Source of the DNA: Dastarcus helophoroides
Lineage: Eukaryota > Arthropoda > Insecta > Coleoptera > Bothrideridae
NCBI GenBank assembly: GCA_028583605.1
Contig: CM053331.1
Location: 7,378,091-7,442,090, forward strand
DNA: 64,000 nucleotides
Direction of reading: 5' to 3'
Shown: positions 830-61,955 of the stretch, in pieces
Layout: each line of letters begins with the position of its first letter
Position numbering within the stretch: position 1 is the stretch's first letter
Program-made: the position numbers and the translations under genes
Notes under the pieces: model-generated
What the model saw: only the letters and a program-made list of their open reading frames with translations
Told to the model about the DNA's origin: nothing
The model's database searches: none

Positions 830-1051
830 CCTTGGTTATCTTCAAAAATTGAAATACAAATCTTGTCCCCTGAAACCAAGAAAGATAAGAAAACACAACA
901 AAGATTGCTCTAACGCTTTTCGATCGCCAAGCTATCATCTTCAGAGAGATACCAGAATACAAATCTTGTCCCCTGAAACCAAGAAAAATAAGAAAACACA
1001 ACAAAGATTGCTCTAACGCGTTTCGATAGCCAAGCTATTTGTGTTTCAATT
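830..1051 (-). mobile_element. Hammerhead-ribozyme element, head-to-tail dimer
   Basis: Read on the minus strand, the unit carries CTGAAGA, a stem-loop, GAAA, then GCGTTAGAGC and a body with GGTTTCAGGGGACAAG. Two copies lie head to tail: the predicted cleavage points are near 912/911 and 1015/1014, about 103 nt apart. The second copy has lost its CTGAAGA half. The conserved phrase TTGGTTATCTTCAAAAATTG marks one edge. The element is absent from the paralogous sequence at 2570-2830, which supports insertion. Assignment to a retrozyme-like or Penelope-associated family is inference. Confidence 0.65.
907..951 (-). ncRNA. Hammerhead ribozyme-like motif (family copy, slightly decayed)
   Basis: Minus strand: stem I strand TCTCT, core CTGAAGA, stem II GATAGC/GCGATC with one mismatch, core GAAA, then AGCGTT, then AGAG, which pairs with CTCT to close stem I. 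The short helix III is damaged compared with the palindrome ACGCGT in better copies. One extra nucleotide sits between CTGAAGA and stem II, as in all copies of this family. Confidence 0.55.
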
Positions 1052-2859
1052 TAAAAAAAATTACATAACATCTACAAATGAAAAATTTTAAAAAAAGCGA
1101 AATTATCAAAGGTCAACATTTTCAAATAAAATAGGAAGTTCTTAAAAAATAGTTGAAGTTTTTAAAAAATGGTTGAAATTTTTATTCTTAATTTTTTTAA
1201 CAAAATTCGAAAATTTAAAAAGTAGTTGAGTTCTTACAAATAAATTTATCAAAATCGAAATTTTGTAACATTTGTAACACATTTTAAAAATATTTGAATT
1301 ATTCAAAAGGGAGCAATATTTTCATAAAATCGGTAATGACAAAATTTCGAACAGAAATTAGATTTGTAAAAGTTGAAATTATGAAATCAAAATTTTTAAG
1401 AGGCGAGATTTTCAAAGAATCTGAATTTAGGACAGAAGTCAAAAATCCCAAAAATCCATATTTTTAAAGGTCGATTTTTTAAAAATAAAAATAAGCCATT
1501 CTTCAAAAGTTGGAATTATCAAAAAAGTCAAAATTTCGGAAAAGGGTCGAAACTCTGATTTGCAAAAGAAACAAATATCGAAATATTCATTTTCATTTGA
1601 AATTAATAATATCAACTATTTAAAGGATCAAAAATGTTTAAAATAAGTCAAAATTTTTATAAAAAGTCGAAATTTAAAAAGAAATAAAATAAATATAAAT
1701 TCTGAAAAAAATTTAACTTGAAAGCGCAGAAACTTTCAAAGAAAGTTGGAGATTTAAAAGGTCAAATTTATTTACAAAATTCAAAAATCTCAACAAAGTA
1801 AAATCTTTAAAAGACCGGTTTTTTAGGTCGAAATTTTGAAGAGTCAAGACTTCGACAAATCGAAATTTATAAGAAATTCGAAGTACTCAAAAAGATCGAA
1901 AATTCTGGAAGAAATGTCAAAATTGGGAAGTTAAAATTTTTAAAAAAGTTGAAATTTCGAATTCAAACTTTTTAAAAGTTGAAATTTTCAAAAAATCCAA
2001 ATTTAGAATAAAATCATATTATATATTTCAAGAAATAAACCTATTTTTTACAAAGTAAAAATTTTCAAAAATAAAAAATACATAAAAATAAAAATTCAAC
2101 AAAAAAAGTAGAAAATTTCAAGAAAATGAGTCAAAACTTGAAAAAACCGCAAGAGTCTCAAAAAGATCGGATTTTTAAAAAAAAAAATCAGAACATCTAA
2201 AAAGAAGCAAATTTTCGACATAAAACAAAATGTTGAGAAAAAGTAGAAATTTTGAAAAAATTAAAAGTTTTGAGAAAAACTAGAAATTTTGAAAAAAGCG
2301 ACATTTTGAAAAAATGGAAATTTAGAAAAAGGTGATATTTTGAAGCTTCGAAATTTTCAAAAATGGTCGAAACTTTTAAAAAAGAAGTTGACATTTAAAC
2401 AAAACGAATTTTTCGAAAAATTCGAAATATTCAAAAGGAGCACATTTTCGAAATGGCAATAATTTTTTGAAAAAGTCTGAATTTTAAAGAAAAGTCAAAA
2501 TTTTCAAACAGTTTTTGAAATTTCGTGATCAACTCTTTAAAAAATCAGAATTAAAAATAAAAATCAAAACGCGTAAAATTTTGCTTTTTTTCAAAATTCT
2601 GAAATAAATCAAAATTTCGAAAAAGGTGACATCTTAAAAATTTTCGAAGTGGGGAATTTTAAAAAATTGTCGAAAAAGTGGAATTTTTCAAAAAAATCGA
2701 ACTTTGAAAAAAGGGCGAAAATTTGAAAAAGCAGAAAATTACCTAATATTTACAAATAAAATTAAAAAAAAAGCGAAATTATCAAACGTCAAAATTTTCA
2801 AATAAAGTAGGAAGTTCTTAAAAAAGCAAAAAGGGCAAAAATAAATTATTTTTTCTTAA

Positions 2860-4700
2860 ATTGAGACATTTCTATATATAGGTCGATTTTCTTGAAATTT
2901 TCGACTATTTTTCACTAGTTTTTCTGAAAATTTCGCTATTTTTTAACTTTCGACTTACTTTCAAAATTTCGATTTTTTTTTTAAATCTTGACCATTTATC
3001 ATAATTTGGACATTTTTAAATAATAATAGTAATAATAGCTACTTTGCAGCGCTTTCCATCGCTATGGGAGATAGCATGTATGGACTGCTATTGCTAGGGC
3101 CGAACGGCATACGAGGAAGGCAGTGTGGCCAACACTGCGCTTCAGCCGCCTATTATTACCCCGAGTTACACCCGAGTACTCATTACACCGTAAGGCTGAG
3201 CCGATCTTGGGAACCAGAGCGTTTCTTAAAAACGGGTGGTAAATAAAGCCGCCAGCGTGAATCGAACCCAGCTCTCTTAGTTTGTAGCCCAGTGCCCATA
3301 CCACTGGACCACGGTCCTCTCTTGCGGTATTTTTTCAAAACATAAATTTTATTAAAATTCTGGCCTAAAATTTCAGCCTTTTTACAAAATGTTCGACTTT
3401 GCTTCAAATTTTCAGCTATCAAAAATTTCAACTTTTACCAAAATTGTAACTTTCCAGTATTTCGACTTTTGAAAATTTCGATATATCTGATAATTTTGGC
3501 TTCTTATTTCAATATTACGATTTCGAAAATGTTGCCTTATACTAAAAATTTGACGCAAATTTCCCAAATTTTCAAAATGTAAACTTTTTCAAAATTTCGA
3601 ATAATTTTAAAAACATCTCGATTTTTTCATAATTTTCTTATCTTTTGAATGTGTCGACTTTTTCAAAGTTTTAATATTTTTTTAATTTCGACTCCAAAAT
3701 TTGGTGTTTTTTTCGAAAATCTTTTTTAAAAAAGCTTTTAAATCTGTTGAAAATTTGAAAGTTTTTGAAAATTTTGTCTTATTCTCAAATTTTCAGGCTT
3801 TTTTAATATTTCGTCCATTTTTCAAAATTTTGAAAAATATTAAAAATTCCAACTAATCTTTAATATTCGACTCATTTTTTAAAAATTTTGACCTTTTCTT
3901 AAATCTGGACTTTTTTCAAATTTTCGACTTTTTTTTAAATTCCCACTTTATTGAACATTTCGTTTTTTTTTAATGTTGAAAGTTTTAATAATTTTAGCCG
4001 GTTAATCAAATTAAAAATTTTTTGAAAATTATGAAAATTTTACTCGAAAGTTTTGATTTTTTTAGGTCAGATGTTTCTTACAACTTTTTTTTTAAATTTT
4101 CAACTATTTCGCAAAATTTCGAATTTTTCTAACAATTTTGACCCCGTTGAGAACGTAGACTTCTTTTTTTTTTTTAATTCTGACTCTTTTTAAAAACCTA
4201 TTATTTTTGAAAAGTTTAGTTCGACATTTTTTCAAAATTTAATTTACATTTTTTTTTGAAAATTTCAAATCAAATCTTCAACTTTTTCCAAAATTTTAAA
4301 TTTTAACTTTTTGGATAATTATAAATTTTCTGATAATTTTAACTTCAATATTCGAAGAATTCAGCTTTTATGAAAATTTAACTGAAAATTCTGCAATTTA
4401 TTTGTAAATGTCGATATTTTTCCAAAATTTCGCCTTTTTTCAAATTCCCGAAGTTATTGAAAATGTCGACTTTATCAAAATGTTGACATTTTTTTCAAAC
4501 TACTGAATTCCTTTCTCAAAATCCTAATTTTTTTGGAAATTAAACTTTCTATGAAAATTTCGACACGTTCTAAAATTTCGACTTTTTTTTTAATTTTGAC
4601 CTTTCTGATAATTTAAGCTTTCTTTCAATATTCAATTTTCAAAAAAAATCAGTTTTTTTGAGAATTTGAGTGAAAATTTTTCAATTTTTTAAATCTCAGT
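2860..4700 (-). repeat. T-rich decayed dispersed repeat block (inverse strand bias)
   Basis: T-rich DNA with phrases such as TTTCGACTTTTT, the complement of the bias before 2850. Segments 3430-3710 and 4240-4500 align by eye, phrase by phrase and in the same order, with 42960-43260 and 43800-44120 inside the hAT-like element at 42045-46041. The block is therefore a decayed copy of the same transposon interior rather than a simple repeat. A SINE interrupts it at 3021-3322. No gene is seen. Confidence 0.6.
3021..3322 (-). mobile_element. tRNA-derived SINE
   Basis: Markedly GC-richer than its surroundings. On the minus strand the head has an RNA polymerase III A box (TGGTCCAGTGG, 3301-3311) and a B box (GGGTTCGATTCAC, 3257-3269) spaced 31 bp apart, as in tRNA genes. 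A ~220-bp tRNA-unrelated body follows, ending in an ATT/ATTACT microsatellite tail at 3021-3040. This order (tRNA head, body, short simple tail) is the classic SINE plan. The family cannot be named from sequence alone, and no convincing target duplication was found in the AT-rich flanks. Confidence 0.85.
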
Positions 4701-4711: not shown

Positions 4712-4798
4712 TATGAAAATACAAATCTTCTTTCCTGAAATCAAGAAAGATTTGTATTTCAATTTTTGAAGATAATCAAGGACTAGCCCGGTCCACTA
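4712..4798 (+). mobile_element. Fragment of the hammerhead-ribozyme element family
   Basis: Contains the family's outer module as a small inverted repeat: ACAAATCTT...CCTGAAATCAAGAAAGA followed by TTTGTATTTCAATTTTTGAA, GATAATCAAGGACTAG and GTCCACT. The ribozyme core is missing. Confidence 0.6.
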
Positions 4799-6794: not shown

Positions 6795-6966
6795 TGGTGG
6801 AACGGACTTATTCTTGGTTATCTTCAAAAATTGATGTACAAATCTATCTATCAGTATCTCTCTGAAGATGAAGGCTTGCCTTTCGAAACGCGTTAGATCG
6901 ACATTTGTTGTATTTTTAAATCTTTCTTGCCTTCAGGAGACAAGATGTGTATATCAATTCTTTAAA
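6795..6966 (+). mobile_element. Hammerhead-ribozyme element, foldback copy
   Basis: Begins GGTGGAACGGACTTATTCTT and carries the outer module in one orientation, then the ribozyme core in the other, then the body ending ACAAGATGTGTATATCAATT. It has both an inverted outer module and a ribozyme core that keeps all key bases. Confidence 0.65.
6857..6898 (+). ncRNA. Hammerhead ribozyme-like motif with intact core
   Basis: CTGAAGA at 6862-6868, stem II AAGGC/GCCTT with loop TT, GAAA at 6885-6888, then the palindrome ACGCGT and a U before the predicted cleavage after 6894. Stem I is short (AGA with TCT). The palindromic helix III is too short to form alone and would favour pairing between two copies, as known for some retroelement hammerheads. 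Activity is not demonstrated. Confidence 0.55.
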
Positions 6967-7072: not shown

Positions 7073-7418
7073 ATTAATTACATGAAAATAGTCTAGCCCA
7101 CAATTCCCATTTTTACTATCTTAGCGGCTAAATTTTAAAAAATCCTTTCTTAGTGCTCACTTGCGTATTAAAGCGGACACCTGTGTAAAATTTCATGCTC
7201 CTAAACCCACCCTAGACTGTGCGTTGTATGCCAGTCAGTGTTAACGATTTATTAAATAGGTATGTTAGTATTAAGAATAAAATGTAAAATATGCTACTCT
7301 TATGCTCTAGAGATGACAGATGACAGTACTAATAAGATGTTGAACATTACGTATAATAAATAAAAAGAGTATAAATTCTGTGTCAGTGACTTCATTATCA
7401 ATAATTATTCGAAAATTG
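7073..7418 (+). repeat. ~350-bp dispersed repeat, copy 2
   Basis: Second copy of the repeat at 5043-5394. It runs directly into a hammerhead-family element, so that element seems to have inserted at or near the 3' edge of this copy. Confidence 0.6.
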
Positions 7419-7572
7419 AAATACAAATCTTGTCCCCTGAAACCAAAAAAGAATAAAAAACGCAACAAAGCAACCTCTGTTGTGTTTCTTAATCTTTCTT
7501 GGTTTCAGGGGACAAGATTTGTATTTCAATTTTTGAAGATAACCAAGTACCAGTCCGTTCCACCAAAAAAAA
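7411..7572 (+). mobile_element. Hammerhead-ribozyme family, inverted dimer without core
   Basis: Near-palindromic: TTGAAATACAAATCTTGTCC at the left and its complement (GGACAAGATTTGTATTTCAA) near 7518-7537, with CCTGAAACCAA and TTGGTTTCAGG between. The right side ends CCAGTCCGTTCCACC followed by a run of A, an edge shared with the copies at 17225 and 48089. The ribozyme core itself has been deleted. Confidence 0.6.
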
Positions 7573-12721: not shown

Positions 12722-12805
12722 TTGGTGGAACGCTCCTTGGTTATCTTTAAAAATTAGAATATAATTCTTGTCCGCAAAACCAAGAAAAATTAAAAAACTA
12801 TACCA
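12722..12805 (-). mobile_element. Truncated hammerhead-ribozyme family element
   Basis: TTTGGTGGAACGCTCCTTGG, then TTATCTTTAAAAATT, then TCTTGTCCGCAAAACCAAG: the outer module of the family with a few changes, cut before the ribozyme core. Confidence 0.55.
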
Positions 12806-12976
12806 AATTTAAATTTATATTTGTCAATTTCTTATAGTCAAGTCTCAACTCATAACGTCGAGAAAAATTTCTATAATTAAATAATAAAAGTCAACATGTT
12901 GATAAAAAGGATTAAGAGGTTTTGACAAATGACCAATTAAATGTTCTGTAATTAAACAGCTTAAAATTGAAAATAT

Positions 12977-13043
12977 GTACAACCGCAACCATAGACTAGT
13001 TTCGGCCTTCCTTGGCCTCATCAGCATGGTACGGTGGTTGTAC
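12977..13043 (-). ncRNA. Hammerhead ribozyme, type I, canonical core
   Basis: Read 5' to 3' on the minus strand: GTACAACC (outer stem I), a short internal bulge, CCAT, then core CTGATGA, stem II GGCC/GGCC with loop AAGGAA, core GAAA, the palindrome ACTAGT as minimal helix III, the cleavage triplet GTC with predicted cut between 12994 and 12993, then TATGG pairing back to CCAT(G), a small bulge, and GGTTGTAC, which is exactly complementary to the outer strand. Every conserved hammerhead base is present and both halves of a 14-bp bipartite stem I pair. A short helix III and a bulged stem I are the known hallmarks of hammerheads in Penelope-like elements and retrozymes. No protein frame accompanies it, and its host element could not be delimited. 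Confidence 0.85.
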
Positions 13044-17224: not shown

Positions 17225-17450
17225 TGAAGAAAAATTGAAACGCAAATTTTGTTCCCTGAAACCAAGAAAGATGAAAAAACACAACAAAGATTGCTCTGAT
17301 GCGTTTCGACAGCTAAGCCATCATCTTCAGCGAGACACTGAACTAGAGCAACCTTTGTTGTGTTTTTTAACATTTCTTGGTTTCAGGGGACAAGAATAGT
17401 ATTTTAATTTTTGAAGATAACCAGGGACCTGTCCGTTTCACCAAAAAAAA
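17225..17450 (+). mobile_element. Hammerhead-ribozyme element, inverted dimer with decayed core
   Basis: Left half (minus orientation): TTGTTCCCTGAAACCAAGAA, then GATGCGTTTCGACAGCTAAG and CCATCATCTTCAGCGAGAC. Right half (plus): TAGAGCAACCTTTGTTGTG, then TTTCTTGGTTTCAGGGGACA, ending CCAGGGACCTGTCCGTTTC and a run of nine A. The ribozyme of the left half keeps CTGAAGA and GAAA, but the helix III palindrome is broken (ACGCAT). Confidence 0.6.
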
Positions 17451-18312: not shown

Positions 18313-20700
18313 TTGTATTATATTTTGTATTTTGTATTTCGTATTTCGTATTTCGTATTTTGTATTTTTTATTTCGTATTTCGTATTTCGTATTTTGTAT
18401 TTTGTATTTTGTATTTTGTATTTTGTATTTTGTATTTTGTATTTTGTATTTCGTACTTTCTATTTCGTATTTTGTATTTTGCATTTCGTATTTCGTATTT
18501 CGTATTTCGTATTTCGTATTTCGTATTTCGTATTTCGTATTTCGTATTTCGTATTTCGTATTTCGTATTTTGTATTTTGTATTTCGTACTTTCTATTTCA
18601 TATTTCGTATTTCGTATTTCGTATTTCCTATTTCCTATTTCGTATTTCGTATTTGGTATTTCGTATTTCGTATTTCGTATTTCGTATTTTGTATTTTGTA
18701 TTTTGTATTTTGTATTTTGTATTTCGTATTTTGTATTTTCTATTTTGTATTTTTTATTTCGTAATTTGTATTTTGTATTTCGTATTTCGTATTTCGTATT
18801 TCGTATTTCGTATTTCGTATTTCGTATTTTGTATTTTTTATTTCGTATTTCGTATTTCGTATTTCGTATTTCGTATTTCGTATTTTGTATTTTGTATTTC
18901 GTACTTTCTATTTCGTATTTTGTATTTTGCATTTCGTATTTCGTATTTCGTATTTCGTATTTCGTATTTTGTATTTTGTATTTCGTACTTTCTATTTCAT
19001 ATTTCGTATTTCGTATTTCCTATTTCGTATTTCGTATTTCGTATTTCGTATTTGGTATTTCGTATTTCGTATTTCGTATTTTGTATTTTGTATTTTGTAT
19101 TTTGTATTTTGTATTTTGTATTTTGTATTTTGTATTTCGTATTTTGTATTTTTTATTTCGTAATTTGTATTTTGTATTTTGTATTTCGTAATTCGTATTT
19201 CGTATTTCGTATTTCGTATTTCGTATTTCGTATTTCGTATTTCGTATTTCGTATTTCGTATTTCGTATTTCGTATTTCGTATTTCGTATTTCGTATTTTG
19301 TATTTTGTATTTCGTATTTTTTATTTCGTAATTGGTATTTTGTATTTTGTATTTTGTATTTTGTATTTTGTATTTTGTATTTTGTATTTTGTATTTTGTA
19401 TTTTGTATTTTGTATTTTGTATTTTGTATTTTGTATTTTGTATTTTGTATTTTGTATTTTGTATTTTGTATTTTGTATTTTGTATTTGTATTTCGTATTT
19501 CGTATTTCGTATTTCGTATTTCGTATTTCGTATTTCGTATTTCGTATTTCGTATTTCGTATTTCGTATTTCGTATTTCGTGTTTCGTATTTCGTATTTCG
19601 TATTTCGTATTTTGTATTTTGTATTTTGTATTTTGTATTTTGTATTTTGTATCTTGTATTTTGTATCTTGTATCTTGTATTTTGTATTTCGTATTTCGTA
19701 TTTCGTATTTCGTATTTCGTATTTTGTATTTTGTATTTTGTATTTTGTATTTCGTATTTCGTATTTCGTATTTCGTATTTCGTATTTCGTATTTCGTATT
19801 TCGTATTTCGTATTTCGTATTTCGTATTTCGTATTTCGTATTTCGTATTTCGTATTTTGTATTTTGTATTTTGTATCTTGCATTTTGTATTTTGTATCAT
19901 TGTATTTTATATCATTGTATTTTGTATTTTGTATTTCGTATTTTGTATTTCGTATTTCGTATTTCGTATTTCGTATTTCGTATTTCGTATTTCGTATTTC
20001 GTATTTCGTATTTCGTATTTCGTATTTTGTATTTTTTATTTCGTATTTCGTATTTCGTATTTCGTATTTTGTATTTTGTATTTCGTACTTTCTATTTCGT
20101 ATTTTGTATTTTGCATTTCGTATTTCGTATTTCGTATTTCGTATTTCGTATTTCGTATTTCGTATTTCGTATTTTGTATTTTGTATTTTGTATTTTGTCT
20201 TTTGTATTTCGTACTTTCTATGTCATATTTCGTATTTCCTATTTCGTATTTCGTATTTCGTATTTGGTATTTGGTATTTCGTATTTCGTATTTCGTATTT
20301 CGTATTTCGTATTTCGTATTTCGTATTTGGTATTTCGTATTTCGTATTTCGTATTTCGTATTTCGTATTTCGTATTTCGTATTTCGTATTTCGTATTTTG
20401 TATTTTGTATTTGGTATTTTGTATTTTGTATTTTGTATTTTGTATTTTGTATTTTGTATTTTGTATTTCGTATTTTGTATTTTCTATTTTGTATTTTTTA
20501 TTTCGTAATTTGTATTTTGTATTTTGTATTTCGTGTTTCGTATCTCGAATTTCGTATTTCGTATTTCGTATTTCGTATTTCGTATTTCGTATTTCGTATT
20601 TCGTATTTTGTATTTTGTATTTTGTATTTGGTATTTCGTGTTTCATGTTTCATGTTTCGTTATTTCCTATTTCGTATTTCATACTTCGTATTTTGTATTT
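18313..20700 (+). repeat. Heptanucleotide satellite (TATTTCG / TATTTTG)n
   Basis: About 2.4 kb of 7-bp units, nearly all TATTTCG or TATTTTG, in alternating runs of one type. Rare variants (CTATTTC, TATTTGG, GTACTTTC, GTAATTTG, TATCTTG) recur in the same order, for example the GTACTTTCTATTTCGTATT motif near 18451, 18902 and 20087, which shows a higher-order repeat of a few hundred bp on top of the 7-bp period. Because 7 is not a multiple of 3 and no rotation of either unit contains a stop, all frames on both strands stay open (YFVFRIS-like on plus, NTKYEIR-like on minus). The apparent 805-codon frame is an artefact of this and is not annotated as a gene. Confidence 0.97.
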
Positions 20701-26946: not shown

Positions 26947-27151
26947 GTAGTTTTACCTTTTTTATTATTTTTTGATACACGGACATTGTACAAAGAAGAT
27001 GTGTCGATATTTCTAGGTAGAGCAGTGAGCTCTATAAGGTGGGCATCTAATGAAGTGCAAGTTTCAATAAAGTATATTTCGAGTTTTCAAGGTGGGACAA
27101 TGAACCCCCCACCCTCGTAGCTACGCTAATGCATCTTCACGTCGTACGTAC

Positions 27152-31612: not shown

Positions 31613-31639
31613 TTTAAAAAAAGACATATACTTGGTTTT

Positions 31640-34440: not shown

Positions 34441-34449
34441 TCTGCTTGC

Positions 34450-34720
34450 ATTAGTTGCTGAGTGAATTAAGTAGCTCAGTAGCTGGTGTTGCTGACGGTC
34501 CCAAGCCCGGATAAAGGAGGAAGGTTGGCGGGATGGATTAGCAGCTCACCCGTCCTAAAAAAGATAAATAAGCTCCTAGCTCTTAGCCTCGGAATCCGGA
34601 CGGATTACACGGAAGAACGACTCGGCAAGGAAAAGGAGTAAGCAATGTTGGAAAAAGACTACAATACGACTTGGATGCTGGGACAGCTTATCATGGACCC
34701 GCAAAGATCAAGAAGTCATC
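34450..34720 (+). mobile_element. 5' leader of RTE-like LINE
   Basis: GC-richer stretch with CTGACGGTCCCAAGCCCGGA, immediately upstream of the endonuclease frame and ending in the region that would encode its N-terminus. Taken as the retrotransposon leader because it changes composition sharply at 34450 and runs into the pseudogene without a break. Confidence 0.55.
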
Positions 34721-35470: not shown

Positions 35471-36580
35471 ATCTGTACAAAAAAAGGTTGACCGAAAAAA
35501 TAGAGTCTTATCTAATATCAGAAGAAGACAATGTAGAACAAACATGGACAAAAATAAAAAATAACATCTTTCATAGTACAGAAAAAGCAGCAGAATCAAG
35601 ACAGAAGAACATTAACGCCAGAAGAAATATAAAGTCTTGGTTTACTGAAGAGGTTAAAACGATAGCTGAAGAGAAAAGGAGAGCATATCTTGAATACCGC
35701 AACAACCAGACACCGCAAAGCTATGAGAAATACAAACAAACAAGAAATAGAACCAATAACGAAGTTGCGAATCTAAAAGAAGATTATTGGGCAAAATTTT
35801 CTAGTGGTATGGAATACGATCTATGTGGTAGCCACAAAAAGACATGGTGATGTGACCTAATAGAAAGAAATCTGTAATGAACATGTGGAAATAAAAACAA
35901 TCTCAAAAGAAGAATAGGGTAAGACACTTTAAGAACCAATCTGTATGTAGCCACATCGGTAGAGGTACCAGAAGACAATCTAAACAATGACAATGACATC
36001 AGTGTTACCACAGATGATGTCATAAAAGGGATAAAGAAAATGAAAAATCGGAAGTCACCATGTATAGACCTTATCACCAACGAGATGATAAAATACGGAG
36101 AAGAGAACCTGGTAACCAAGCTGACCGTACTTTTTGCAAAAAGTTCACAATCCGGGATCACACTAGATTAGTGGCGGATAAGTCTCATAACACTTATCTT
36201 CAAGAATGGCACCAAACATGATCCCTTAAACTATAGAGGAATATCACTATTGATTTACGTTTCGAAGCTACTTACAAGAATAATGTCCACCAAAATCAGC
36301 CAATAACTGGAATTAAGTGAGGAACAATAAGGCTTCCGAAGCAATAGATCCACCGTAGACGCCATATTCATTCTGAGGCAACTGATAGAAACAGCCATAG
36401 AGTACAAACCATTGTTCCTCTGCTTTGTTGACTTTACATTCGCATTTGACAGAACCGACTGACGGAACCAGAAGAATAACCATAGCTAACAAAGCGTACC
36501 ACGCAATGTCCCACGTACTTAAATCTAAAAACGTTCACCTTAAGAACAAGTTGACGGTGTACAAAACAATAGTTAATATC
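35471..36580 (+). pseudogene. RTE-like LINE: linker and reverse transcriptase N-terminal part, broken
   Basis: A lysine- and arginine-rich linker (35488-35850) follows after a frameshift near 35470. RT block 1 is clear near 36020-36120: GIKKMKNRKSPCIDLITNEM and KYGEENLVTKL. Next come NYRGIS(L) near 36230, EEQ.GFRSNRSTVDAIF near 36320 and FVDFTFAFDRTD near 36425 (the catalytic Asp region, with the usual KAFD as FAFD). Many stops are spread through it. Its next part (YKTIV near 36558) is cut by a hammerhead-family insertion. Confidence 0.75.
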
Positions 36581-36713
36581 TCTCTGAAGGTGATAGCTTG
36601 GCTATCGAAATGCGTCAGAGCAACTTTGTTGTGTTTTTTAAATCTTTTTTGATGTCAGGGGACAATATTTGTATTTCAATTTTTGAATATAATCAAGGAC
36701 CAGTCCTTTCCAC
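36573..36713 (+). mobile_element. Hammerhead-ribozyme element inserted in the LINE
   Basis: Plus-strand copy: ATCTCTCTGAAGGTGATAGC, TTGGCTATCGAAATGCGTCA, the body TTTTTGATGTCAGGGGACAA, then TTTGAATATAATCAAGGACC and AGTCCTTTCCA. It is flanked by an 11-bp direct repeat CAAAACAATAG at 36562-36572 and 36714-36724. Removing it rejoins the LINE codons for YKTI. The ribozyme core carries CTGAAGG and GAAATGCGT substitutions, so this copy is likely inactive. Confidence 0.75.
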
Positions 36714-37160
36714 CAAAACAATAGACCTATCATCAGTTGTGGATGTGAAGCGTGAACTATGACAGAAAACACAAAAAATACTCTCAACATTTTCGAGAGA
36801 ATGGTACTGAGAAAGATACTGAAGCCAGTTCAGGACGATAACATCTGGAGGGTCAGATACAATCATGAACTGTATTGTCTTTTTAAAGAACCCCCACTTC
36901 CAGAATTTATTAGACTTCAACGGCTACAAAGAGCATGTGGTCGGAATGGAAGCAAACAGGTTGTCTAAGAGGATTCGGAACAGCCGAAAGAGATCAGATG
37001 GGAAGGTGAAATTTGACAAGAGACACGTGAACTTCTAGGAGTTCGAGTGTGCAAGAGAAGCAACGGAAGATCGAGAGACATGGAGGCAAAAGTTGAAGGA
37101 GGCAAGGAGAAGAAGGCCCAATTTGGACTGTAGTGTTATAAAAAGAAGAATTTGCGCACC
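36714..37160 (+). pseudogene. RTE-like LINE: C-terminal part after insertion
   Basis: Continues the reverse transcriptase past the insertion: CEAWTMTE-like remnant, then TLNIFERMVLRKILKPVQ and RYNHELYCLFKEPPLPEFI, RLQRLQRACG. These match the conserved C-terminal 'ERKVLRKIFGPV...YNHELY.LY' region of RTE-like LINEs. A frameshift follows near 36960, then KRHVNF and ETWRQKLKEARRRR near 37070-37120. Confidence 0.75.
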
Positions 37161-39000: not shown

Positions 39001-39004
39001 CTGG

Positions 39005-41070
39005 TGATTTGGTTGGCCACGTACAGATTTTGGAGAAAATTCCATTGGGATCCATTGCCAAACCAACAGATCAAATGCCTACAAAACTGAACTTTGTTGT
39101 GCCATACGAAGTGGTTATCGTGGACCGCCAGACATGGAATAGACATAGTGAAAGGCTAGCAAACAACGCATCTGTCTGGTACACAGACGGATCCAAACAA
39201 ACAGGGGGAGTTGGACTAGGAATATGTGATCCTAATTTAAGACTCTCTGACATTTGTGTGAAAAAGGAGGCAGCTCTTAGTGCCTCAAAGCTATTCCAAT
39301 CGAACAAAATGAAACCGGGTGACTTGGTTGGCCATATAGAGATTCTAAAGAAAATTCCACTGGGATCCATTGGCAAACCAACAGATCAAATGCCTACAAA
39401 ACTGGACTTTGTTGTTCCATACGAAGTGGTTATCGGGGACCGCCAGACATGGAGTAGACACAGTGAAAGGCTAGCAAACAACGCATCTGTCTGGGATCCA
39501 TTGCCAAACCAATAGATCAAATGCCTACAAAAGTGGACTTTGTTGTTTCATACGAAGTGGTTATCAGGGACCACCAGACATTTAATAGACACATTAAAAG
39601 GCTAGCAAAGAACACATCTGTCTGGTAGATAGACCGATCCAAACAAACAGAAAAAGTAGGACTAGGAATATGTGATCCTAATTTAAGACTCTCTGACATT
39701 TGTGTGAAAAAGGAGACAGCGCTTAGTGCCTCAAAGCTATTCCAATCGAACAAACTGAAACCGGGTGACTTGGTTGGCCACGTACAGATTCTGGGGAAAA
39801 TTCCACTGGGATCCATTGGCAAACCAACGGATCAAATGCCTAAAAAACTAAACTTTGTTGTTCCATACGAAGTGGTTATCAGGAACCGCCTGTCATGGAA
39901 TAGACACAGTGAAAGGCTAGCAAATAACGCATCTGTCTGGTAGATAGACGGATCCAAACAAACAGGAGGAGTAGGAATAGGAATATGTGAACCTAATTTA
40001 AGACTCTCTGACATTTGTGTGAAAAAGGAGGCTGCGCTTAGTGCCTCAAAGCTATTCCAATCGAACAAACTGAAACCAGGTGACTTGGTTAACCACGTAC
40101 AGATTCTGGGGAAAATTCCACTGGGATCCATTGGCAAACCAATAGATCAAATACCTACAAAACTGGACTTCGTTGTTCCATACGAAGTGGTTATCGGGAA
40201 CCACCAGACATGGAATAGACACAGGGAAAGGCTACAACGTACAGATTCTAGGAAAAATTTCACTGGGATCCATTGGCAAACCAACAGATCAAATACCTAC
40301 AAAACTGTACTTTGTTGTTCCATACGAAGTGGTTATCGGGGACCACCAAACATGGAATAGACACAGTGAAAGGCTAGCAAACAACGCATCTGTCTGGTAG
40401 ATAGACGGATCCAAACAAACAGAAGGAGTAGGACTAGGAATATGTGATCTTAATTTAAGACTCTCTGACATTTGTGTGAAAAAGGAGGCAGCGCTTAGTG
40501 CCTCAAAGCTATTCCAATTGAACAAACTGAAACCGGGTGACTTGGTTGGCCACGTACAGATTCTGGGAAAAATTTTACTGGGATCCATTGGCAAATTAAC
40601 AGATCAAATGCCTACAAAACCGTAATTTATTATTCCATACGAAGTGGTTATCGGGGACCACCAAACATGGAATAGACACAATGAAAGGCTAGCAAACAAC
40701 GCATCTGTCTGGTAGATAGACGAATCCAAACAAACAGGAGAAGTAGGACTAGGAAAATGTGATCCTAATTTAGGACTTTCTGACATTTGTGTGAAAAAGA
40801 AGGCAGCGCTTAGTGCCTCAAAGCTATTCCAATGGAACAAACTGAAACCGGGTGACTTGGTTGGCCACGTACAAATTCTAGGAAAAATTTCACTGGGATT
40901 TATTGGCAAACCAACAGATCAAATGTCTACAAAACTGGACTTTGTTGTTTCGTACTAAGTAGTTATCAGGGACCGCCTGACATGGAATAGACACAGTGAA
41001 AGGCTAGCAAACAACGCATCTGTCTGGTAGATAGACGGATCCAAAAAAACAGAAGAAGTAGGACTAGGAA
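39005..41070 (+). repeat. ~316-bp tandem array of a LINE RNase H segment
   Basis: At least eight copies, some truncated, of a ~316-bp unit coding on the plus strand for the start of the RNase H domain. The unit contains FVVPYEVVI, RQTWNRHSERLANNASVW, YTDGSKQTGGVGLGICDPN and LRLSD, then jumps back to ICVKKEAALSASKLFQSNK. The conserved marker GAAAGGCTAGCAAA occurs near 39150, 39465, 39912, 40368, 40684 and 41001, with variant forms near 39596 and 40228. The first copy reads TGG TAC ACA GAC (WYTD), but later copies read TGG TAG ATA GAC (W-stop-ID). Each copy also has an antisense open frame of 101 codons, which is a shadow. Confidence 0.9.
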
Positions 41071-41760
41071 TATGGGATCCTAATTTAAGACTTTCTAAAA
41101 CCCTAGGAAATCCTCCCACAATTTTCCAAGCAGAACTGCTTGCTCTAACACTGTGTGCAAAGAGTGCTTTTAAAAAGAAATCAAAAACGTAAAGTTTTAT
41201 ATCGTTTTAAACAGCTAGGCTTCATTAAAGACTCTAAAGTCGTTTAGAACCAAGTCAAAAATGGGAATGCAAACAATTCCTGAAGCAACTGGCTGCAAAC
41301 AACAAAGTAACTTTGGTGTGGGTTCCAAGGCATCAAGACATAGAAGGGAACGAAGGGGCAGATAGATTCGCAAAAGGGGCCTTAATCACACCTCTCTTCG
41401 GCCCAGAACCATACTGCGGTCCTACAAAAAGCCACGTAAAAAATGAAATAGATTCTTGGGAGGCAAACCAAAGGCTGTCATACTGAAGGAAATCTCCAGG
41501 CGTAAGACAGTAAAAAAGTTCATCATTATCTTAAAAAAGAATTCCAAGCAGCTTCTCGAACTGAACCAGAACTACTTAGGATTAATAACGAGACTTTTCA
41601 CAGGACACTTTCCAGTAAAGTATTACCTTAGGAAGATGGGAAAAGTAAATGATAAAAACTGCAGATTCTGTAACGCAGTAACAGAAACAACCTGCTGTGC
41701 GAATGCATGGCCCACTTCGGTAAAAGGCTCAAATTTCTTGTAAGAGTGATCCTGACTCCC
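41071..41760 (+). pseudogene. LINE RNase H remainder and C-terminal zinc-finger region
   Basis: Continues the RNase H domain beyond the array: PPTIFQAELLALTLCAKSAF near 41112-41172 supplies the catalytic Glu block, and WVPRHQDIEGNEGADRFAKG near 41320-41379 the His/Asp block. After further frameshifts, LITRLFTGHFPVKYYLRKMG and KNCRFCN near 41580-41675 match the C-terminal 'TGH..L..HL.KMG....C.FC' motif of RNase-H-bearing insect LINEs. Dead by stops. Confidence 0.75.
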
Positions 41761-48085: not shown

Positions 48086-48088
48086 AAC

Positions 48089-48236
48089 AGTATCTCTCTG
48101 AAGATAATAGCTTCGCTATCAAACGCGTTAGAGCAACATTTGTTGTGATTTTCAATCTTTCTTGGTTTCAGGGGACAACATTTTCATTTCAATTTTTGAA
48201 GATAACCAAGGAGTAGTTGGTTCCACTAAAAAAAAA
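48089..48236 (+). mobile_element. Hammerhead-ribozyme element, core mutated
   Basis: CAGTATCTCTCTGAAGATAA, TAGCTTCGCTATCAAACGCG, TTAGAGCAACATTTGTTGTG, then the body TTCTTGGTTTCAGGGGACAA and the end TAGTTGGTTCCACT plus nine A. The essential G of GAAA is lost (CTATCAAACG), so the ribozyme should be dead. Confidence 0.7.
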
Positions 48237-54165: not shown

Positions 54166-54395
54166 GTTATACAGTTACAGAACGCTTTCTCCAAGAAAAG
54201 GACGAATTCTACTGGTCTTCTGGTGAAGAACTAGAGGAAAGTAGAGGGATAAAATCTCTCATCTTAACAGGAGACTTTAATGGAAAAGTGGGTATTAGAG
54301 ACAATGACGAAGTTGTGGCGAAATATGGAGATCCTCAAACAAAAAATAACGAAGATAGAGTTATTGAACTCTGTAAACAACATGACCAAAAAAGT
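54166..54395 (+). pseudogene. RTE-like LINE endonuclease fragment, copy 1
   Basis: Encodes ILTGDFNGKVGIRDNDEVVA, then KYGDP and NNEDRVIELCKQHD. GDFN is the endonuclease catalytic motif. It matches copy 2 at 55293-55520 with few changes and stops abruptly at CATGACCAAAAA, where A-rich DNA and a hammerhead-family element begin. Confidence 0.75.
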
Positions 54396-54420
54396 TAAAA
54401 ATTTCAAAAAAAGACAATAT

Positions 54421-54665
54421 TGGTGGAACGGACTGATGTTATCTTCAGAAATTGATGTACAAATCTTGTCCTCTGAAACCAAGCAAAATTAAAAACACAA
54501 CAGTTATCTTAACGTGTTTCGACATCGAAGCTATCATCTTCAGAGAGATACTGATAGAAAGATATTGATAGCTGGTAGAGATAGCATCCCTCTAAAGATG
54601 ATAAATTCGATAACCAAGCTATCAAAGAGATACTATCTCCCTGCTACTAGTATCTTTCTATTCTA
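54421..54665 (-). mobile_element. Hammerhead-ribozyme element copied from the 57.8-kb locus
   Basis: TGGTGGAACGGACTGATGTT, ATCTTCAGAAATTGATGTAC, then AACGTGTTTCGACATCGAAG and CTATCATCTTCAGAGAGATA (minus-strand ribozyme), then a palindromic GATAG/CTATC module. The same sequence and its left flank (AATTTCAAAAAAAGACAATA) occur at 57826-58095. Confidence 0.7.
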
Positions 54666-57655: not shown

Positions 57656-57847
57656 GTAAAATTTTGAAAAATAGTCACAATTTTCGAACAAATGAAATTT
57701 TGAAATAAAACCTATTTTAAAAAATGGGAAGTTTGAAGTCGAAATTAGAAAAAAAAATGGGTATTTTATAAAGTTGGAAATATGTGAAAAAGTCTAAATT
57801 AAAAAGTCGAACTTTAAAAGAGTCAAAAATTTCAAAAAAAGACAATA

Positions 57848-59800
57848 TTGGTGGAACGGACTGATGCTATCTTCAGAAATTGATGTACAAATCTTGTCCT
57901 CTGAAACCAAGCAAAATTAAAAAACACAACAGTTATTTTAACGCGTTTCGACATCGAAGCTATCATATTTAGAGAGATACTGATAGAAAGATACTAAGAG
58001 CTGGTAGAGATAGCATCCCTCTCTGAAGATGATAGTTTCGATAACCAAGCTATCAAAGAGATACTATCTCCCTGCTAATAGTATCTTTCTATCAGCTACT
58101 TTCTTCAGAGAGATACTGATAGCTGATAGAGATAGTATCTCTCTATCAGCTATCATTTTCATAGAGATACCGATAAAGAGATACTATCTCTATCAGCTAT
58201 CAGTATACATGTAACATTATCTCTCTGAACACAGCTATCATCTTCAGGGAGATACTGATAGAGATACTGATAGCTGATGGAGATAGTATCTTTCTATCAG
58301 AATCTCTCTGAAGATGATATCAGTATCTCTCTGAACACAGTTGCCACCTTCAAAGAGTTACTGATAGCTGATAGAGCGATTAGTATCTCTTTAAAGATGG
58401 TAACCGTGTTCAGAGAGATACTGATAAAGATAGAGTCCTTTTATCAGTATTAAATGTCTCTATCAGTGACTCTCTAAACACTGCAACCATCTTCAGAGAG
58501 ATATTGATAGAGAGATACTATCTCTATCAGTTATCAATAGCTACCATTTCAGAGAGATACTGATAGAGAGATACTGATAGAAAGATACTATCTCTATCAG
58601 CTATCAGTATCTCTCTGAAGATGGTAACTACCGTCAGTTACCATGATGGTAGTTAAAAAAACATACTGACAGCTAATAGAAAGATAGTATCTCTCTGAAG
58701 ACGATGGCTTGGTTATCTAGAGCAACTATCTCTCTGTCAATATCTCTCTAAATACAGCTACCATCTTCAAAGGGATACTGATAGCTGATAGAGATAGTAT
58801 CTCTGTATCAGTATCTCTCTGAAGATGATAGCTGATAAAGAGATATTATATCTATCAGCTATCAGAATCTCTCTGGAGATGGTAACTGTGTTCAAAAAGA
58901 TACTGATAGAGAGATACTTTTTCTATCAGTATAGAATTTCTCTATCACTGTCTTTCTAAACAATACTACCATCTTCAGAAAGATACTGGTAGAGAGATAC
59001 CATCTCTATCAGTTATCCATAGCTACCATTTCAGAGAGATACTGATAGAGAGACATTATCCCTATCAGCTATGAATATCCCCCTGAAGATGGTATCTACC
59101 GTCAGTTACCATGATGGTAGTTAAAAAAACATACTGACAGCTAATAGAAAGATAGTATCTCTCTGAAGACGATGGCTTGGTTATCTAAACAAGTTAGAGC
59201 AATTATCTCTCTATCGGTATTTCTCTAAACACAGCTACCCTCTTCAGAGGGATACTGATAGAGAGATACTGATAGCTGATAGAGATAGTATCTCTGTATC
59301 AGTATCTCTCTGAAGATGATAGCTGATAAAGAGATATTATATCTATCAGCTATCAGAATCTCTCTGGAGATGGTAACTGTGTTCAAAAAGATACTGATAG
59401 AGAGATACTTTTTCTATCAGTATAGAATTTCTTTATCAGTGTCTCTCTAAACATTGCTACCCTCTTCAGAGAGATACCATCTCTATAAATTATCAATAGT
59501 GACCATTTTAGAGAGATACTGATAGAGCTAGAGATTAGCTATCAGTATCTCTCTGAAGATGGTAGCTACCATCAGTTACCATGATGGTAGTTGATAGAAA
59601 AATATTGATAGCTGATAGAAAGATAGTATTTCTCTGAAGACGACAGCTTGGCTATCGAAACGAGTTAGAGCAACTATCTCTCTATCAGTATCTGTTTATC
59701 AAGATGATAGCTTGGCTATCGAAACGTGTTAGAGCAACTGTTTTTGAGTTTTTTAATCCTTCTTGGTTTTAGGGGACAAGATTTGTGTATCAATTTTTAA
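57848..59800. mobile_element. Hammerhead-ribozyme element with giant palindromic expansion
   Basis: Opens GGTGGAACGGACTGATGCTA and closes with the family body TTGGTTTTAGGGGACAAG and ATTTGTGTATCAATTTT. In between, ~1.7 kb consist of alternating complementary modules: GATACTGATAGAGAGATAC, CTATCTCTATCAGCTATCAG, ATCTCTCTGAAGATGATAGC, ACCATCTTCAGAGAGATAC and CCATGATGGTAG. One ~480-bp passage starting CATACTGACAGCTAATAG near 58662 recurs near 59130 with the same order, so there is a higher-order duplication. Several ribozyme cores are embedded; the best is at 59630-59670. Confidence 0.75.
59630..59670 (+). ncRNA. Hammerhead ribozyme-like motif with near-consensus core
   Basis: TTCT, CTGAAGA, stem II GACAGC/GCTATC with one mismatch, GAAA, ACGAGT then U, then AGAG pairing with stem I. 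A neighbouring copy at 59700-59735 keeps GATAGCTTGGCTATCGAAAC but has lost CTGAAGA. Confidence 0.5.
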
Positions 59801-61740
59801 AAGAAATTTTAAAAATCAGTTTTAATTTCAAAAGTATCAAAACTTTGAAATATAACCGAAACTAATTTGAAAAATGTTGAATTTTGGACAAAAAATTAAA
59901 TTTGCAAAACATTGAGAATAAGGAAAAAATTTCAAAGAATTCAAACAAGTAAAAATTTTTGAAAATGAACGAATTTCTTCAGAAAAAAGTCGAAAATCTA
60001 GAATTGAAATATTCAAACTTAAACCTTTATAAAAATTTTGAAAAACTTTAAAATTGACAAATCATTAAAATTTTAAAAACGATTAAAATTTGAAAAAAGT
60101 TTATATTTCAAAAATTTTGAAATTTTTAAAAAATGACAACCTTTTGAAAATTGTTGACAATTATATTTTAAAGTTGAGACATTTTCATAAATTAAAGTTA
60201 TTTTTTTTAATTTTGACTTTTTATTTGAAAATTTTGACTTTAGAGTACGAACTTTTTTAAAATTTCCGACATTTTCAAAATTTAAATATTTTAAAGATCT
60301 CAAAGTTTCAGCATTTTTAAAATTGAAACTTTAGTGTCGAAATTGTCAATAATTCTTGAAATTTTGTTAATCTTTTGAATCTTCTAAAGAAGTTGAAATT
60401 TTGAAAAAGTCAAAAATTTTTAAGTCAAAATTTTCAAATACAATTAAAACTTTTAAAAATGCCGAAATTCTGAAAAATGTCAGAATTTTCATGTAAAGTG
60501 AAAATATTTAAAAAAGTTGAGGTTGTTGAAAAATATCAAAATTTTGAAAAAATAGACATTTTCATAATTTCTAAAATTTGACAAAAAGAAAGATTAAAAA
60601 AACGAACTTTTGAAAAATCTTCGAAAATAATTTACAACTTCATTCCGAAAATCTTTAATAAAAAGTTTGTACTTTTTTGTGGAGATTTTCAGAAAAAATA
60701 GCATTTTGATCAAAATTCGAGATTTTTAAAAACAAATCGTAAATTTCAACAAATGGTGTAATCTTCCAGGGAAATTCAAAAAACTGTAAAATTTTTTGAA
60801 AAAAAAAGAATTTTTAAAAAATCTATGATTTGCAAAAGGATCAAAATTTTGAGATTAATTAACATTACAAAAAAGTCGAAATTAACAAAAAAACTTAAAC
60901 TTTTGGAAAAAGAGTCAACAATTATAAAAATTTTTTAAAAATCAAATTTGGAAAAATGTTGACAAATAAAAAATTAAAAAATGACCGGATTTTCAAAAAA
61001 AGCTAAATATTCGAAAAGTCTAAATATTGAAGAAACTTCCTAATTATCAAAGGAGAAATTTTCAAAAAAAAATTGAAATACTGAAAAGCTAAAATTTTGG
61101 AAAAGCTCGAGATCAAAATTTTGAGAAAAAACTAAAACGGTTTTTAAAAATTCGAAATTTGTTCTTGAAGGTTTGAAAGAAAATTATGATTTCGAAGAAA
61201 ATAGCATTTGGATAAATAGTAGAAATTTTCAAAACAAATTAAAAATGTTAACAAATAGGGCAATTTCTCTGTAAAAACCGAAATTTCCAACTAGTAAATA
61301 TTATTAAAGAAATTCTGAAATTTATTTTAAATTTAAAAAATTCGAAGTCGTCGAAATTATCAAAAACACTTAAAATTTTGAAATACATAAGTTCAAGATT
61401 TTGAAAGAAGTCCAAATCGTTGAAAAAGTAAACATTTTAATAAAGTCAAAATTTACAAAACACTCGAAATTTTGAAAAAAAATTTGAAGTTATGGAAAGT
61501 TACACATTTTAAAAAATTAGGTTTTTAGAAAATGTTAAAATTTTGACGAATTCCCATTTTTTGAAAATTCGAAAATCTAAAAAAATTGAAATTATTAAGA
61601 AAATTGAAAAATAGTTTATTCTTTCAAAAATAGTCCAGGTATTTATAAAAATTTAAAGATTAAAAAAAATAATTATTTTTAATTGTTTTTAAAATAAGAA
61701 ATTTTCAAAAAGTCTTAGTATTTTTATTTAGACTATATTA
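59801..61740 (+). repeat. A-rich decayed repeat block
   Basis: Same A-rich phrasing as 1-2850 and 5395-7060. No gene is supported. Confidence 0.45.
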
Positions 61741-61746
61741 AAGAAT

Positions 61747-61955
61747 TGAAAAACAAAACCTGTCCCCTGAAACCAAGTAAGATTAAAAAACAACTAACGC
61801 GTTTCGACAGCCAAGCTATTATCTTCATCATCTTCAGAGAGATACTATCTCTGTGAAAATGGCTTGGTTATCGAAACGCGTTAGAGCAACTTCTGTTGTA
61901 TTTTTTAGTCTTTCTTGGTTTCAGGGGGTTTCAGGGGACAAAATTTGTATATTGT
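61747..61955. mobile_element. Hammerhead-ribozyme element, inverted dimer
   Basis: The left half is in minus orientation (CCTGTCCCCTGAAACCAAGT, AACGCGTTTCGACAGCCAAG, CATCTTCAGAGAGATACTAT) and the right half in plus (GGCTTGGTTATCGAAACGCG, TTAGAGCAACTTCTGTTGTA, TTGGTTTCAGGGG). The left core has an insertion in stem II, and the right core lost CTGAAGA (CTGTGAAAA). The phrase TTTCAGGGG is locally doubled near 61917-61935. Confidence 0.65.

Follow-up and report, generated by a model that had tools for sequence, protein, structure and literature searches.

The module and its copies in the window

What kind of element are the short repeats with a hammerhead-like core that lie scattered along this 64,000-nt stretch of Dastarcus helophoroides DNA (the window)? 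A sequence-only reading had placed them at eleven sites. We found 36,617 core matches to the module in the 539-Mb host genome, and a reversed-pattern control gave 0. Within the window, GATAGCTTGGCTATC with up to 3 mismatches matched 17 times (0.5 expected) and GGTTTCAGGGGACAAG 14 times (0.27 expected). Using the 138-nt module consensus (M) as a BLAST query, we identified 20 matches in the window, grouped in 13 clusters. All eleven sites fall inside these clusters, and two further clusters were found at 59156-59202 and 59627-59801. The 23-base core had no exact match in viral-contig or other genome-contig collections.

Single copies, direct dimers and inverted dimers, all of which had been described, are present. 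The solo copy at 36577..36714 (plus strand) is a full-length module (M 1-138) with intact stem II and a tail, flanked by a perfect 10-bp repeat, AAAACAATAG, at 36563-36572 and 36715-36724. Another at 48091..48226 (plus) covers M 1-137, continues into an A tail and has an imperfect flank repeat (GTTTAAAC / GTTTAAGC). Two minus-strand modules span M 1-138 with the tail, one at 54422..54550 and one at 57850..57979; the latter is the left arm bounding a palindromic array. This array contains a core fragment (M 1-47, 59156..59202, plus) and ends on the right with a direct pair, M 1-48 and M 11-111 (59627..59801, plus). The other direct dimer, at 829-1038, consists of M 1-123 with a mutated core (829..951, minus, 95.9% identity) and M 17-99 (956..1038, minus), with a tandem period of 103. 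A 5'-truncated solo arm without a core lies at 12727..12807 (M 50-130, minus).

Five clusters are head-to-head pairs. The pair at 4717..4796 is truncated and has no core (M 65-100 minus, M 67-137 plus). At 6796..6965, a tailed arm (M 89-138, minus) is joined to a short arm with a core and altered stem II (M 1-111, plus), and at 7408..7564 a short arm (M 31-111, minus) adjoins a tailed arm (M 32-138, plus), with no stem II. The pair at 17230..17442 combines a short arm with a core (M 3-108, minus) and a tailed arm (M 40-138, plus); by eye, it has an imperfect 10-bp flank repeat, AAAGTTGAAG / AAAGTCGAAG. The last, at 61734..61927, joins M 9-115 (minus) to M 1-85 (plus).

Core-bearing copies thus exist, but the claim that each copy is built around a hammerhead-like core was overstated. 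The copies near 4712, 7411 and 12722 start at M 65/67, 31/32 and 50; CTGAAGA and the 5' half of stem II are missing from them. Core or stem bases are changed in others: a stem II mismatch (GATAGC/GCGATC) at 829, a missing G of CGAAA at 48091, CTGAAGG in place of CTGAAGA at 36577, and stem II altered to GAAGGC/CCTTTC at 6855, where 5 of 6 positions still pair. Read from the sequence, the core of the solo copy (36584..36620, plus, M 8-44) comprises stem II (GATAGC/GCTATC), GAA, the stem III region and the 3' strand of stem I. The consensus has a start codon at M 14-16, which is GTG in this copy.

The module belongs to a Penelope-like element

Judged from sequence, the module represents the pseudo-LTR/5' end of a Penelope-like element (PLE) resident in this genome, which we call PLE-B; the link rests on two loci, L055 and L004. 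L055 contains the last 67 codons of a PLE frame, a stop codon, 111 bp, and then M 3-136 at 94.8%. The frame overlaps a GIY-YIG match (E 8.6e-4) with a 393-aa open frame, and its protein end shares 47% over 62 aa with a second element, PLE-A (E 4e-10); the PLE-B protein is known here from this C-terminus and the GIY-YIG match. L004 carries the same pseudo-LTR (82.7%) plus M, and upstream of it PLE-B C-terminal codons are joined to an inverted short arm. The pseudo-LTR between frame end and module measures 111-117 bp in the two loci, and both PLE-B copies have a TATA-like motif at -33.

PLE-A (L051) encodes a reverse transcriptase (RT; RVT_1, PF00078, E 1.2e-11) and a GIY-YIG domain (PF01541, E 1.2e-6) in one 417-aa frame. 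An equivalent module follows its stop codon, ending either short or about 34 bp later, and M itself is absent from the downstream flanks of the PLE-A loci L052-L054. M follows the PLE-B C-terminus, and the RT was seen in PLE-A, with an equivalent module and not M. Genome-wide, at least 91 GIY-YIG matches were found when 150 of the 1070 candidates were scored. The reading frame that M predicts begins MIAWLSKRVRATF; its openness, taken alone, is insignificant (8% of shuffles), and at their N-termini the PLE-A and PLE-B peptides align weakly, with a score reached in 71 of 2000 shuffles.

The unit is a truncated product of a larger element and no free-standing element. An independent SINE-like element with a borrowed PLE 5' end and its own promoter, amplified in trans by LINE or PLE proteins, would fit the very high copy number with its subfamily structure. 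However, the marks 18C, 28G, 91T and 93C, which are pairwise associated among the copies, all occur in the PLE-B copy L055, so the subfamilies track the PLE. Since the module starts downstream of the TATA-like box, solo copies should also be promoterless, and by eye no Pol III box was recognised in the module. We consider this explanation unlikely. LINE twin priming of an independent SINE-like RNA was abandoned in view of the PLE 3' ends that carry the module.

Defined ends and head-to-head orientation

We examined the ends of the copies, and found that 137 of 224 matches begin at M 1-8. The 3' ends of 219 matches fall mainly at two sites (92 at M 126-138, 82 at M 100-116, 45 elsewhere). AAAA follows the M 138 end, and the junction at this tailed end is A-rich, with A in 57, 59, 54 and 52 of 61. 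Among 124 clusters in the sampled DNA, 59 are single arms; the two-hit clusters comprise 46 head-to-head ('-+'), 5 direct and 0 '+-' pairs, and direct dimers and trimers also occur. By their ends, the 46 pairs divide into 28 short plus tail, 2 tail plus tail, 2 short plus short and 14 other, so that the tail is on one arm only in 28 of the 32 cleanly classed pairs (P 9.7e-6). Shared flank strings of at least 9 bp (range 9-13 bp) were found in 24 of 121 cases against 2.9 expected, a count that includes at least one repeat-array artefact (L026), L019:435 among repeated flanks and two related L044 rows. Such variable short target-site duplications are those expected of PLEs.

The 46 pairs resemble inverted repeats with outward termini. 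A foldback or MITE DNA transposon, moved by a transposase and with terminal inverted repeats of about 140 bp ending GGTGGAACGG, would account for them, and 2 of the 46 do have the same tailed end on both arms. However, the tail is symmetric in those 2 only, 59 clusters are single arms, some of them flank-repeated at both ends (36577), the tailed junction is A-rich, the shared flank strings have no fixed length (9-13 bp), and PLE frames carry the module at their 3' end. Identical inverted ends with a fixed duplication length, the mark of the ordinary DNA transposon that the sequence-only reading named as its rival, were not found, and we regard this explanation as exceedingly improbable. The foldback candidate suggested by the GGTGG ends was rejected because solo copies occur, pairs mostly carry a single tail and the junction is A-rich.

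The earlier description offered a retrozyme-like or Penelope-derived family; the second half holds (L055, L004), but the ends and orientations do not support retrozyme-like spread. A metazoan retrozyme would consist of non-coding tandem monomers, excised by the hammerhead as circular RNA and reinserted. The unit is small and AT-rich, its core resembles a type I hammerhead, and direct dimers and trimers occur, all of which agrees with this; PLEs have been proposed as helpers, according to the excerpted parts of PMC7229834 and PMC7761336. However, the 5' starts at M 1-8 and the two 3' sites show no circular permutation, the 46 head-to-head against 5 direct pairs are not tandem direct monomers, and the unit belongs to a coding element, of which it forms the 5' end. 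Among the 59 solo 5' ends, 42 lie at M 1-8 and 4 at the predicted cleavage site (40-41), which gives no clear signal of a truncation peak there; of these four, two (both in L047) have flanks in common and one (L034) lies beside an inverted piece. Retrozyme spread is, in our judgement, very improbable. Since most solo copies start upstream of the predicted cut, hammerhead processing is not needed for them.

A hammerhead-like core that overlaps the start codon

The hammerhead reading of the core largely survives, as far as sequence can tell. The 5' ~45 nt of M match a minimal type I hammerhead with stem I, stem II and a palindromic stem III, and because of this palindrome the predicted ribozyme is probably active only as a dimer. 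A descriptor for the CUGANGA ... GAAA core and its stems I and II matches M. When the stems had to measure at least 4 and 6 bp, it matched 14 of 5,593,600 dinucleotide shuffles; it permits one extra base and was designed after M had been seen. The self-complementary ACGCGT and the CTCT/AGAG pairing that had been pointed out are both in the consensus, and the core pairing is retained there. A compensatory stem II change also exists: the pair 18-28 shifts from T-A to C-G in 11 of 140 copies (Fisher 3.9e-6) and in L055. This excess concerns one pair of ten in stems I and II and is linked to positions 91 and 93, so the covariation is mainly one subfamily event; without the anchor copies it is smaller (14 doubly changed, 7.5 expected).

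Compared without formal alignment, the stems of M and PLE-A differ yet pair in each, and PLE-A has the same architecture with C3-G8 changed to U3-A8. Stem III is palindromic in M, in PLE-A (ATACGTAT) and in a hammerhead at 12972. In non-anchor copies, variability in the core and in M 46-129 was 3.5 vs 6.4% at A, 10.5 vs 12.1% at G, 4.7 vs 5.3% at T and 11.8 vs 11.9% at C. The core is mildly less variable, as expected of dead copies. Rfam hammerhead models had no match at the modules; in the window copy, L053 and L055 this held up to E 10. The result is uninformative because L053 and L055, PLE loci of the same layout, are unmatched too. Genome-wide, RF00163 had 1 match, below the cut-off, when 73 of the 91,202 candidates were scored. 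For the first 50 nt of M, RNAfold prefers a pairing that consumes the CUGA core, which is weak counter-evidence because the control hammerhead at 12972 folds likewise. The predicted cleavage-site triplet is GUU, which we take to be a poor one.

An extra T between CTGAAGA and stem II is indeed present in the consensus, as had been noted. From its position this base is U10, the U of the predicted AUG, and A9-U10-G10.1 is the start codon. The suggestion that it may weaken activity is not borne out by precedent: a chrysanthemum viroid hammerhead has an extra A at the same place, and in the portion of the report cited, its change to U raised the trans-cleaving rate 3-4-fold (PMC3705267). The predicted cut lies at M 40/41, 27 bp into the PLE-B frame.

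The PLE origin may be right and the hammerhead resemblance inert, the hairpin serving for RNA binding or translation initiation only. Most solo copies include sequence upstream of the predicted cut, the GUU triplet is non-optimal and the covariation is mainly one event, all of which would agree with an inert hairpin. In Anolis carolinensis, mutants of the Penelope/Poseidon PLE (PAc) that do not cleave insert as well (PMC11167929). Against this stand the complete core with its U10 benign by precedent, the recurrent palindromic stem III, and the PLE-A architecture, kept despite different stems and the U3-A8 change. We hold this to be a possibility of somewhat less than even weight, and its odds overlap those of the explanation that we favour.

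Proposed origin of the copies

Taken together, the members of the family are very probably cDNAs made from the first ~140 nt of PLE-B mRNA. The sequence, the ends, the orientation rule, the shared flank strings and the module 3' of PLE frames were directly observed; the transcription start, double priming and cleavage are what we infer from them. Transcription would begin roughly 14-16 nt ahead of the AUG, a short way past the TATA-like box of the pseudo-LTR. The PLE protein (RT plus GIY-YIG endonuclease) would cut both strands of AT-rich DNA, and reverse transcription would start inside the RNA, within the reading frame at roughly +91..98 or +125..129 nt, the stretch between these two sites being the PLE 'tail'. 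Running to the RNA 5' end, the cDNA would give an insert of roughly 105-142 bp. On a read-through tandem transcript it could enter the preceding PLE copy and yield larger elements whose 3' end is the module, such as L055 and L004. If both nicks served for priming and the two cDNAs joined where each reaches its RNA 5' end, head-to-head pairs would result, in which usually one cDNA would have the tail and the other not.

We tentatively propose that this genome preserves a natural census of PLE insertion, that most PLE-B reverse transcription stops at the mRNA 5' end, leaving a ~140-bp fragment, and that two-sided events use each RT start site once, as if the subunits of a PLE dimer were set to different sites; this could be so, at rather less than even chances. 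If true, translation, cleavage and template choice would be linked through a ribozyme core that also serves as the start codon.

The PLE insertion mechanism is little known (PMC11167929). With tens of thousands of short, defined-end copies in one genome, statistics could be gathered on where templates end, which sites are targeted, how priming occurs on both sides and what place the hammerhead has. Start-to-RT-site copies would also be a simple account of the minimal hammerheads scattered outside coding PLEs in animal genomes, and they carry a warning that head-to-head PLE copies can pass for foldback DNA transposons.

Comparison with known systems

The closest parallel is PAc (PMC11167929), in which the frame also starts at stem II. 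The cut site is 26 bp into the PAc frame and predicted at 27 in PLE-B. RT starts 111-118 bp into the PAc frame, and in PAc, as proposed for PLE-B, a 30-40-bp tail lies between two internal RT start sites. Its targets are likewise AT-rich, and both strands are cut and extended in vitro; uncleaved RNA is the main substrate. The sequence of the module is different, and tens of thousands of short products were seen here. Paired insertions here mostly differ between ends in their RT start site, whereas PAc in vitro shows no apparent difference between top and bottom strand (PMC11167929).

The Adineta vaga Penelope families, as far as the excerpt of PMC3846280 describes them, share inverted pseudo-LTRs placed head to head (in the example shown, one is shorter), an optional 31-bp tail on one pseudo-LTR, 8-10-bp duplications in several, a palindrome at the pseudo-LTR 5' end, and solo pseudo-LTRs. 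Their copy number is low, whereas short copies dominate here. Its authors favour self-priming on an antisense template and do not exclude a sense one; in contrast, the ends seen here are consistent with two priming events on sense RNA.

Minimal type I PLE hammerheads without helix III nucleotides are dispersed by the thousands in metazoan genomes, some map to PLE pseudo-LTRs, and they may cleave as dimers, by the excerpted account of PMC7761336. Relative to that account, each dispersed copy here is explained as a start-to-RT-site cDNA, and U10 makes the core overlap the AUG. Metazoan retrozymes, as outlined in the part of PMC7229834 used here, share short AT-rich non-coding units with type I hammerheads; unlike them, the copies here form no tandem array with permuted ends, are head-to-head and not direct, and are part of a coding element.

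Abundance and structure of the module

The earlier claim that a hammerhead-like module recurs across the window (C7:7378091-7442090) was borne out: one sub-motif was present 17 times and another 14 times, compared with 0.5 and 0.27 expected. Across the eukaryotic host genome (538,885,228 bases, 50 contigs), a 26-base core piece with at most 3 mismatches gave 18,282 + 18,335 matches, which count matches and not insertions, one head-to-head pair giving two; the reversed-pattern control gave 0. We used the 138-nt consensus of the module (M) as a BLAST query against 354,780 bases, comprising 30 exact-core loci, 20 ten-kilobase stretches at further exact matches, and the window; the DNA other than the window came from the first 20 Mb of contig C1. 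We found 224 hits (219 once duplicates were dropped) forming 124 clusters. Median divergence was 6.3% across the 144 hits of at least 80 nt, and M positions 20-45 are skewed towards the consensus in this sample because 62 of the 219 hits have the exact 26-mer.

With its flanking constant bases, M reads AG/TATCTCTCTGAAGATGATAGCTTGGCTATCGAAACGCGTTAGAGC...TTTCAATTTTTGAAGATAACCAAGGACCAGTCCGTTCCACC/AAAA. The 5' end is sharp, at position 1 in 80/224 hits and at positions 1-8 in 137/224; among the 78 deduplicated hits beginning at position 1, -1 is G in 57 and -2 is A in 60. The 3' ends of the 219 hits fall at 126-138 ("tail", 92), at 100-116 ("short", 82) or at other positions (45), and four near-constant A follow position 138 (57, 59, 54 and 52 of 61).

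The single, direct and inverted arrangements proposed from the sequence were all recovered. The 124 clusters comprised 59 single arms (an arm being one copy), 46 head-to-head pairs with their 5' ends inside, 5 direct pairs and 14 larger clusters. No two-hit cluster had the opposite, tail-to-tail orientation, a neighbourhood seen within some of the 14 larger ones. The pattern also held in the 66 clusters that lack an exact-match anchor (36 single arms, 24 head-to-head, 3 direct, 3 larger). Of the 46 head-to-head pairs, 28 joined a short to a tailed arm, 2 had two tails, 2 had two short arms and 14 had truncated or intermediate ends; thus, 28/32 were discordant (P = 9.7e-6 under independence).

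A search for strings common to both flanks, which extended to about 34 and 42 bases from the element ends and was not confined to the ends themselves, found strings of 9 bp or more for 24/121 elements, compared with 2.9 expected from mismatched flanks; these 24 include an array artefact (L026), a copy amid repeated flanks (L019:435) and two related copies (L044). A perfect 10-bp repeat flanks the solo copy at 36577-36714. Tailed copies 54422 and 57850 have outer flanks in common through a segmental duplication (54382-54660 / 57810-58090). Nested palindromic repeats (CTGATAGCTGATAGAGATAGTATCTCTCTATCAG...) span about 1.7 kb at 57980-59700. Their left boundary is a tailed arm (57850-57979) and their right boundary a short one (59701-59801), so that they look as though a single insertion had been amplified at its head-to-head junction.

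Probable origin in Penelope-like elements

PMC3846280 describes, for Penelope-like elements (PLEs), head-to-head inverted pseudo-LTRs, a 31-bp tail on one of them and 8-10-bp duplications. Since the arrangement, tail and flank repeats of the module are these marks, we sought PLEs in the genome. A GIY-YIG profile search gave at least 91 matches at E <=1e-3 among the 150 of 1070 candidates scored. A first type, PLE-A, has at L051 (contig C12) a frame of 417 aa matching both RVT_1 (E 1.2e-11) and GIY-YIG (E 1.2e-6). At the 3' ends of three PLE-A loci, a short spacer separates the stop codon from a module alike in layout and different in sequence, ending short in L054 and about 34 bp further in L051 and L053; M itself is absent from these three ends.

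At locus L055, C-terminal codons (47% identity to PLE-A over 62 aa, E 4e-10) and a stop codon are followed, after 111 bp, by M 3-136 at 94.8%. This copy has 18C, 28G, 91T and 93C, marks that are pairwise associated among module copies. Locus L004 contains an L055-type pseudo-LTR (82.7%) with M; upstream, the C-terminal codons are joined to an inverted short arm. Read from these C-terminal codons and pseudo-LTRs, M belongs to a second PLE type, PLE-B, which supports the proposed Penelope derivation. The suggested reverse transcriptase flanked by the module held in part: RVT_1, GIY-YIG and a similarly arranged module occur on PLE-A, with M itself on PLE-B.

Predicted hammerhead fold

On paper, M forms a minimal type I hammerhead, with a CTCT/AGAG stem I, a CTGAAGA core, an extra U, a GATAGC/GCTATC stem II, GAA and ACGCGT, and a predicted cut after position 40. 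Because ACGCGT is palindromic, a full stem III would form only between two copies. With a descriptor written after the M sequence was seen, dinucleotide shuffles gave stems of >=4 and 4 bp in 166/5,593,600 and of >=4 and 6 bp in 14/5,593,600. RNAfold favours a different pairing, as it does for the control hammerhead at 12972, and Rfam gave no hammerhead match on M or PLE-A modules (window copy, L053, L055).

It had been suggested that the extra base may weaken activity. It need not: the chrysanthemum viroid hammerhead has an extra A there, and changing A to U raised the rate 3-4-fold (PMC3705267).

Compensatory change in stem II was seen at one pair, 18-28 (11 C-G and 1 A-T in 140 copies; Fisher 3.9e-6), with 14 doubly changed compared with 4.8 expected, or 7.5 in non-anchor copies; the remaining nine stem I and II pairs showed no excess. 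The C-G change is a single subfamily event, linked to positions 91 and 93. The lone A-T is window copy 6855, whose stem II (6862-6897, GAAGGC/CCTTTC) has several changes, one of them T-A to A-T, and keeps 5/6 pairs. Core bases are just mildly less variable than the rest of M in non-anchor copies.

Solo hits (n=59) start at M 1-8 in 42 cases and at 40-41 in 4, indicating that most inserted RNA was uncleaved; likewise, mainly uncleaved RNA is inserted by PAc, the Anolis carolinensis PLE (PMC11167929). We consider self-cleavage by some form of the predicted RNA somewhat likely.

Proposed insertion mechanism

The observations comprise the module ends together with the orientation and one-tail rules. 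In L004 and L055, TATA-like motifs (TATATAA, TATGTAA) begin 33 nt before M position 1, which makes position 1 or -2 the probable transcription start. Two solo copies (L003:152, L038:8355) start a few nt further upstream with AGGTGTTAG, a near-match to the PLE-B pseudo-LTR immediately before M and perhaps a second, upstream start.

The extra base of the core (U10) supplies the U of AUG: the ATG at M 14-16 starts a frame (MIAWLSKRVRATF...) open through the end of M, which is not evidence by itself because 8% of shuffles are equally open. Within this frame, the two 3' ends fall at 91-98 and 125-129 nt. For PAc, reverse transcription begins at 111-118 nt of the frame, with the tail lying between two internal start sites (PMC11167929). 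In the simplest account, most modules would be cDNAs that began at an internal start site and reached the 5' end of the mRNA. Read-through templates, being longer, would give larger elements with M at the 3' end, as in L004, and head-to-head pairs would be two such cDNAs, one primed from each of two nicks.

Other features of the window

A well-formed hammerhead lies at 12972-13042 on the reverse strand (CTGATGA-GGCC-AAGGAA-GGCC-GAAA-CTAGTC, palindromic ACTAGT stem III, long stem I). It matched Rfam HH9 under the gathering score (25.3 bits, E 1.8e-4, 201-base search), and its core is without a start codon; L032:155-364 holds a second copy of the element (88.6% over 210 bp). A Type-P1 twister at 34433-34528 on the forward strand (46.6 bits, E 3.4e-7, under the gathering score) is just upstream of a frame at 34580, LINE-like by eye; a review reports RTE retrotransposons with truncated twisters at the 5' end (PMC7761336).

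Long satellites of TATTTCG (7 bp, 18321-20700) and GTTAAAGTTAA (11 bp, 29147-31614) are present, together with tandemly duplicated segments at 39000-41100 (periods 131-457 bp), RNase H-like by eye (ASVWYTDGSKQTGGVG...). The open frame at 27121-27516 on the reverse strand, galactokinase-exon-like by eye, is the sole host-like coding piece recognised.

Comparison with known systems

Earlier publications describe PLE pseudo-LTRs, tails, hammerheads and internal initiation. A literature survey at listing level found neither start-to-RT-site fragments described as the main product nor the one-short-one-tailed rule given as a statistic. U10 as the start codon was likewise absent from these listings, though it may already be known.

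The PLE-A module (GCGC TTGAAAA T GCCAG TTCTG CTGGC GAA ATACGTAT C GCG) has the same layout; in L051, L053 and L054, U3-A8 replaces C3-G8, and stem III is an 8-nt palindrome (ATACGTAT). In PAc, cleavage was abolished by C3G or G8C and partly restored by the double change (PMC11167929). The U3-A8 of PLE-A is in keeping with the 3-8 pair that these changes imply, and this hammerhead-like module is a natural variant worth testing.
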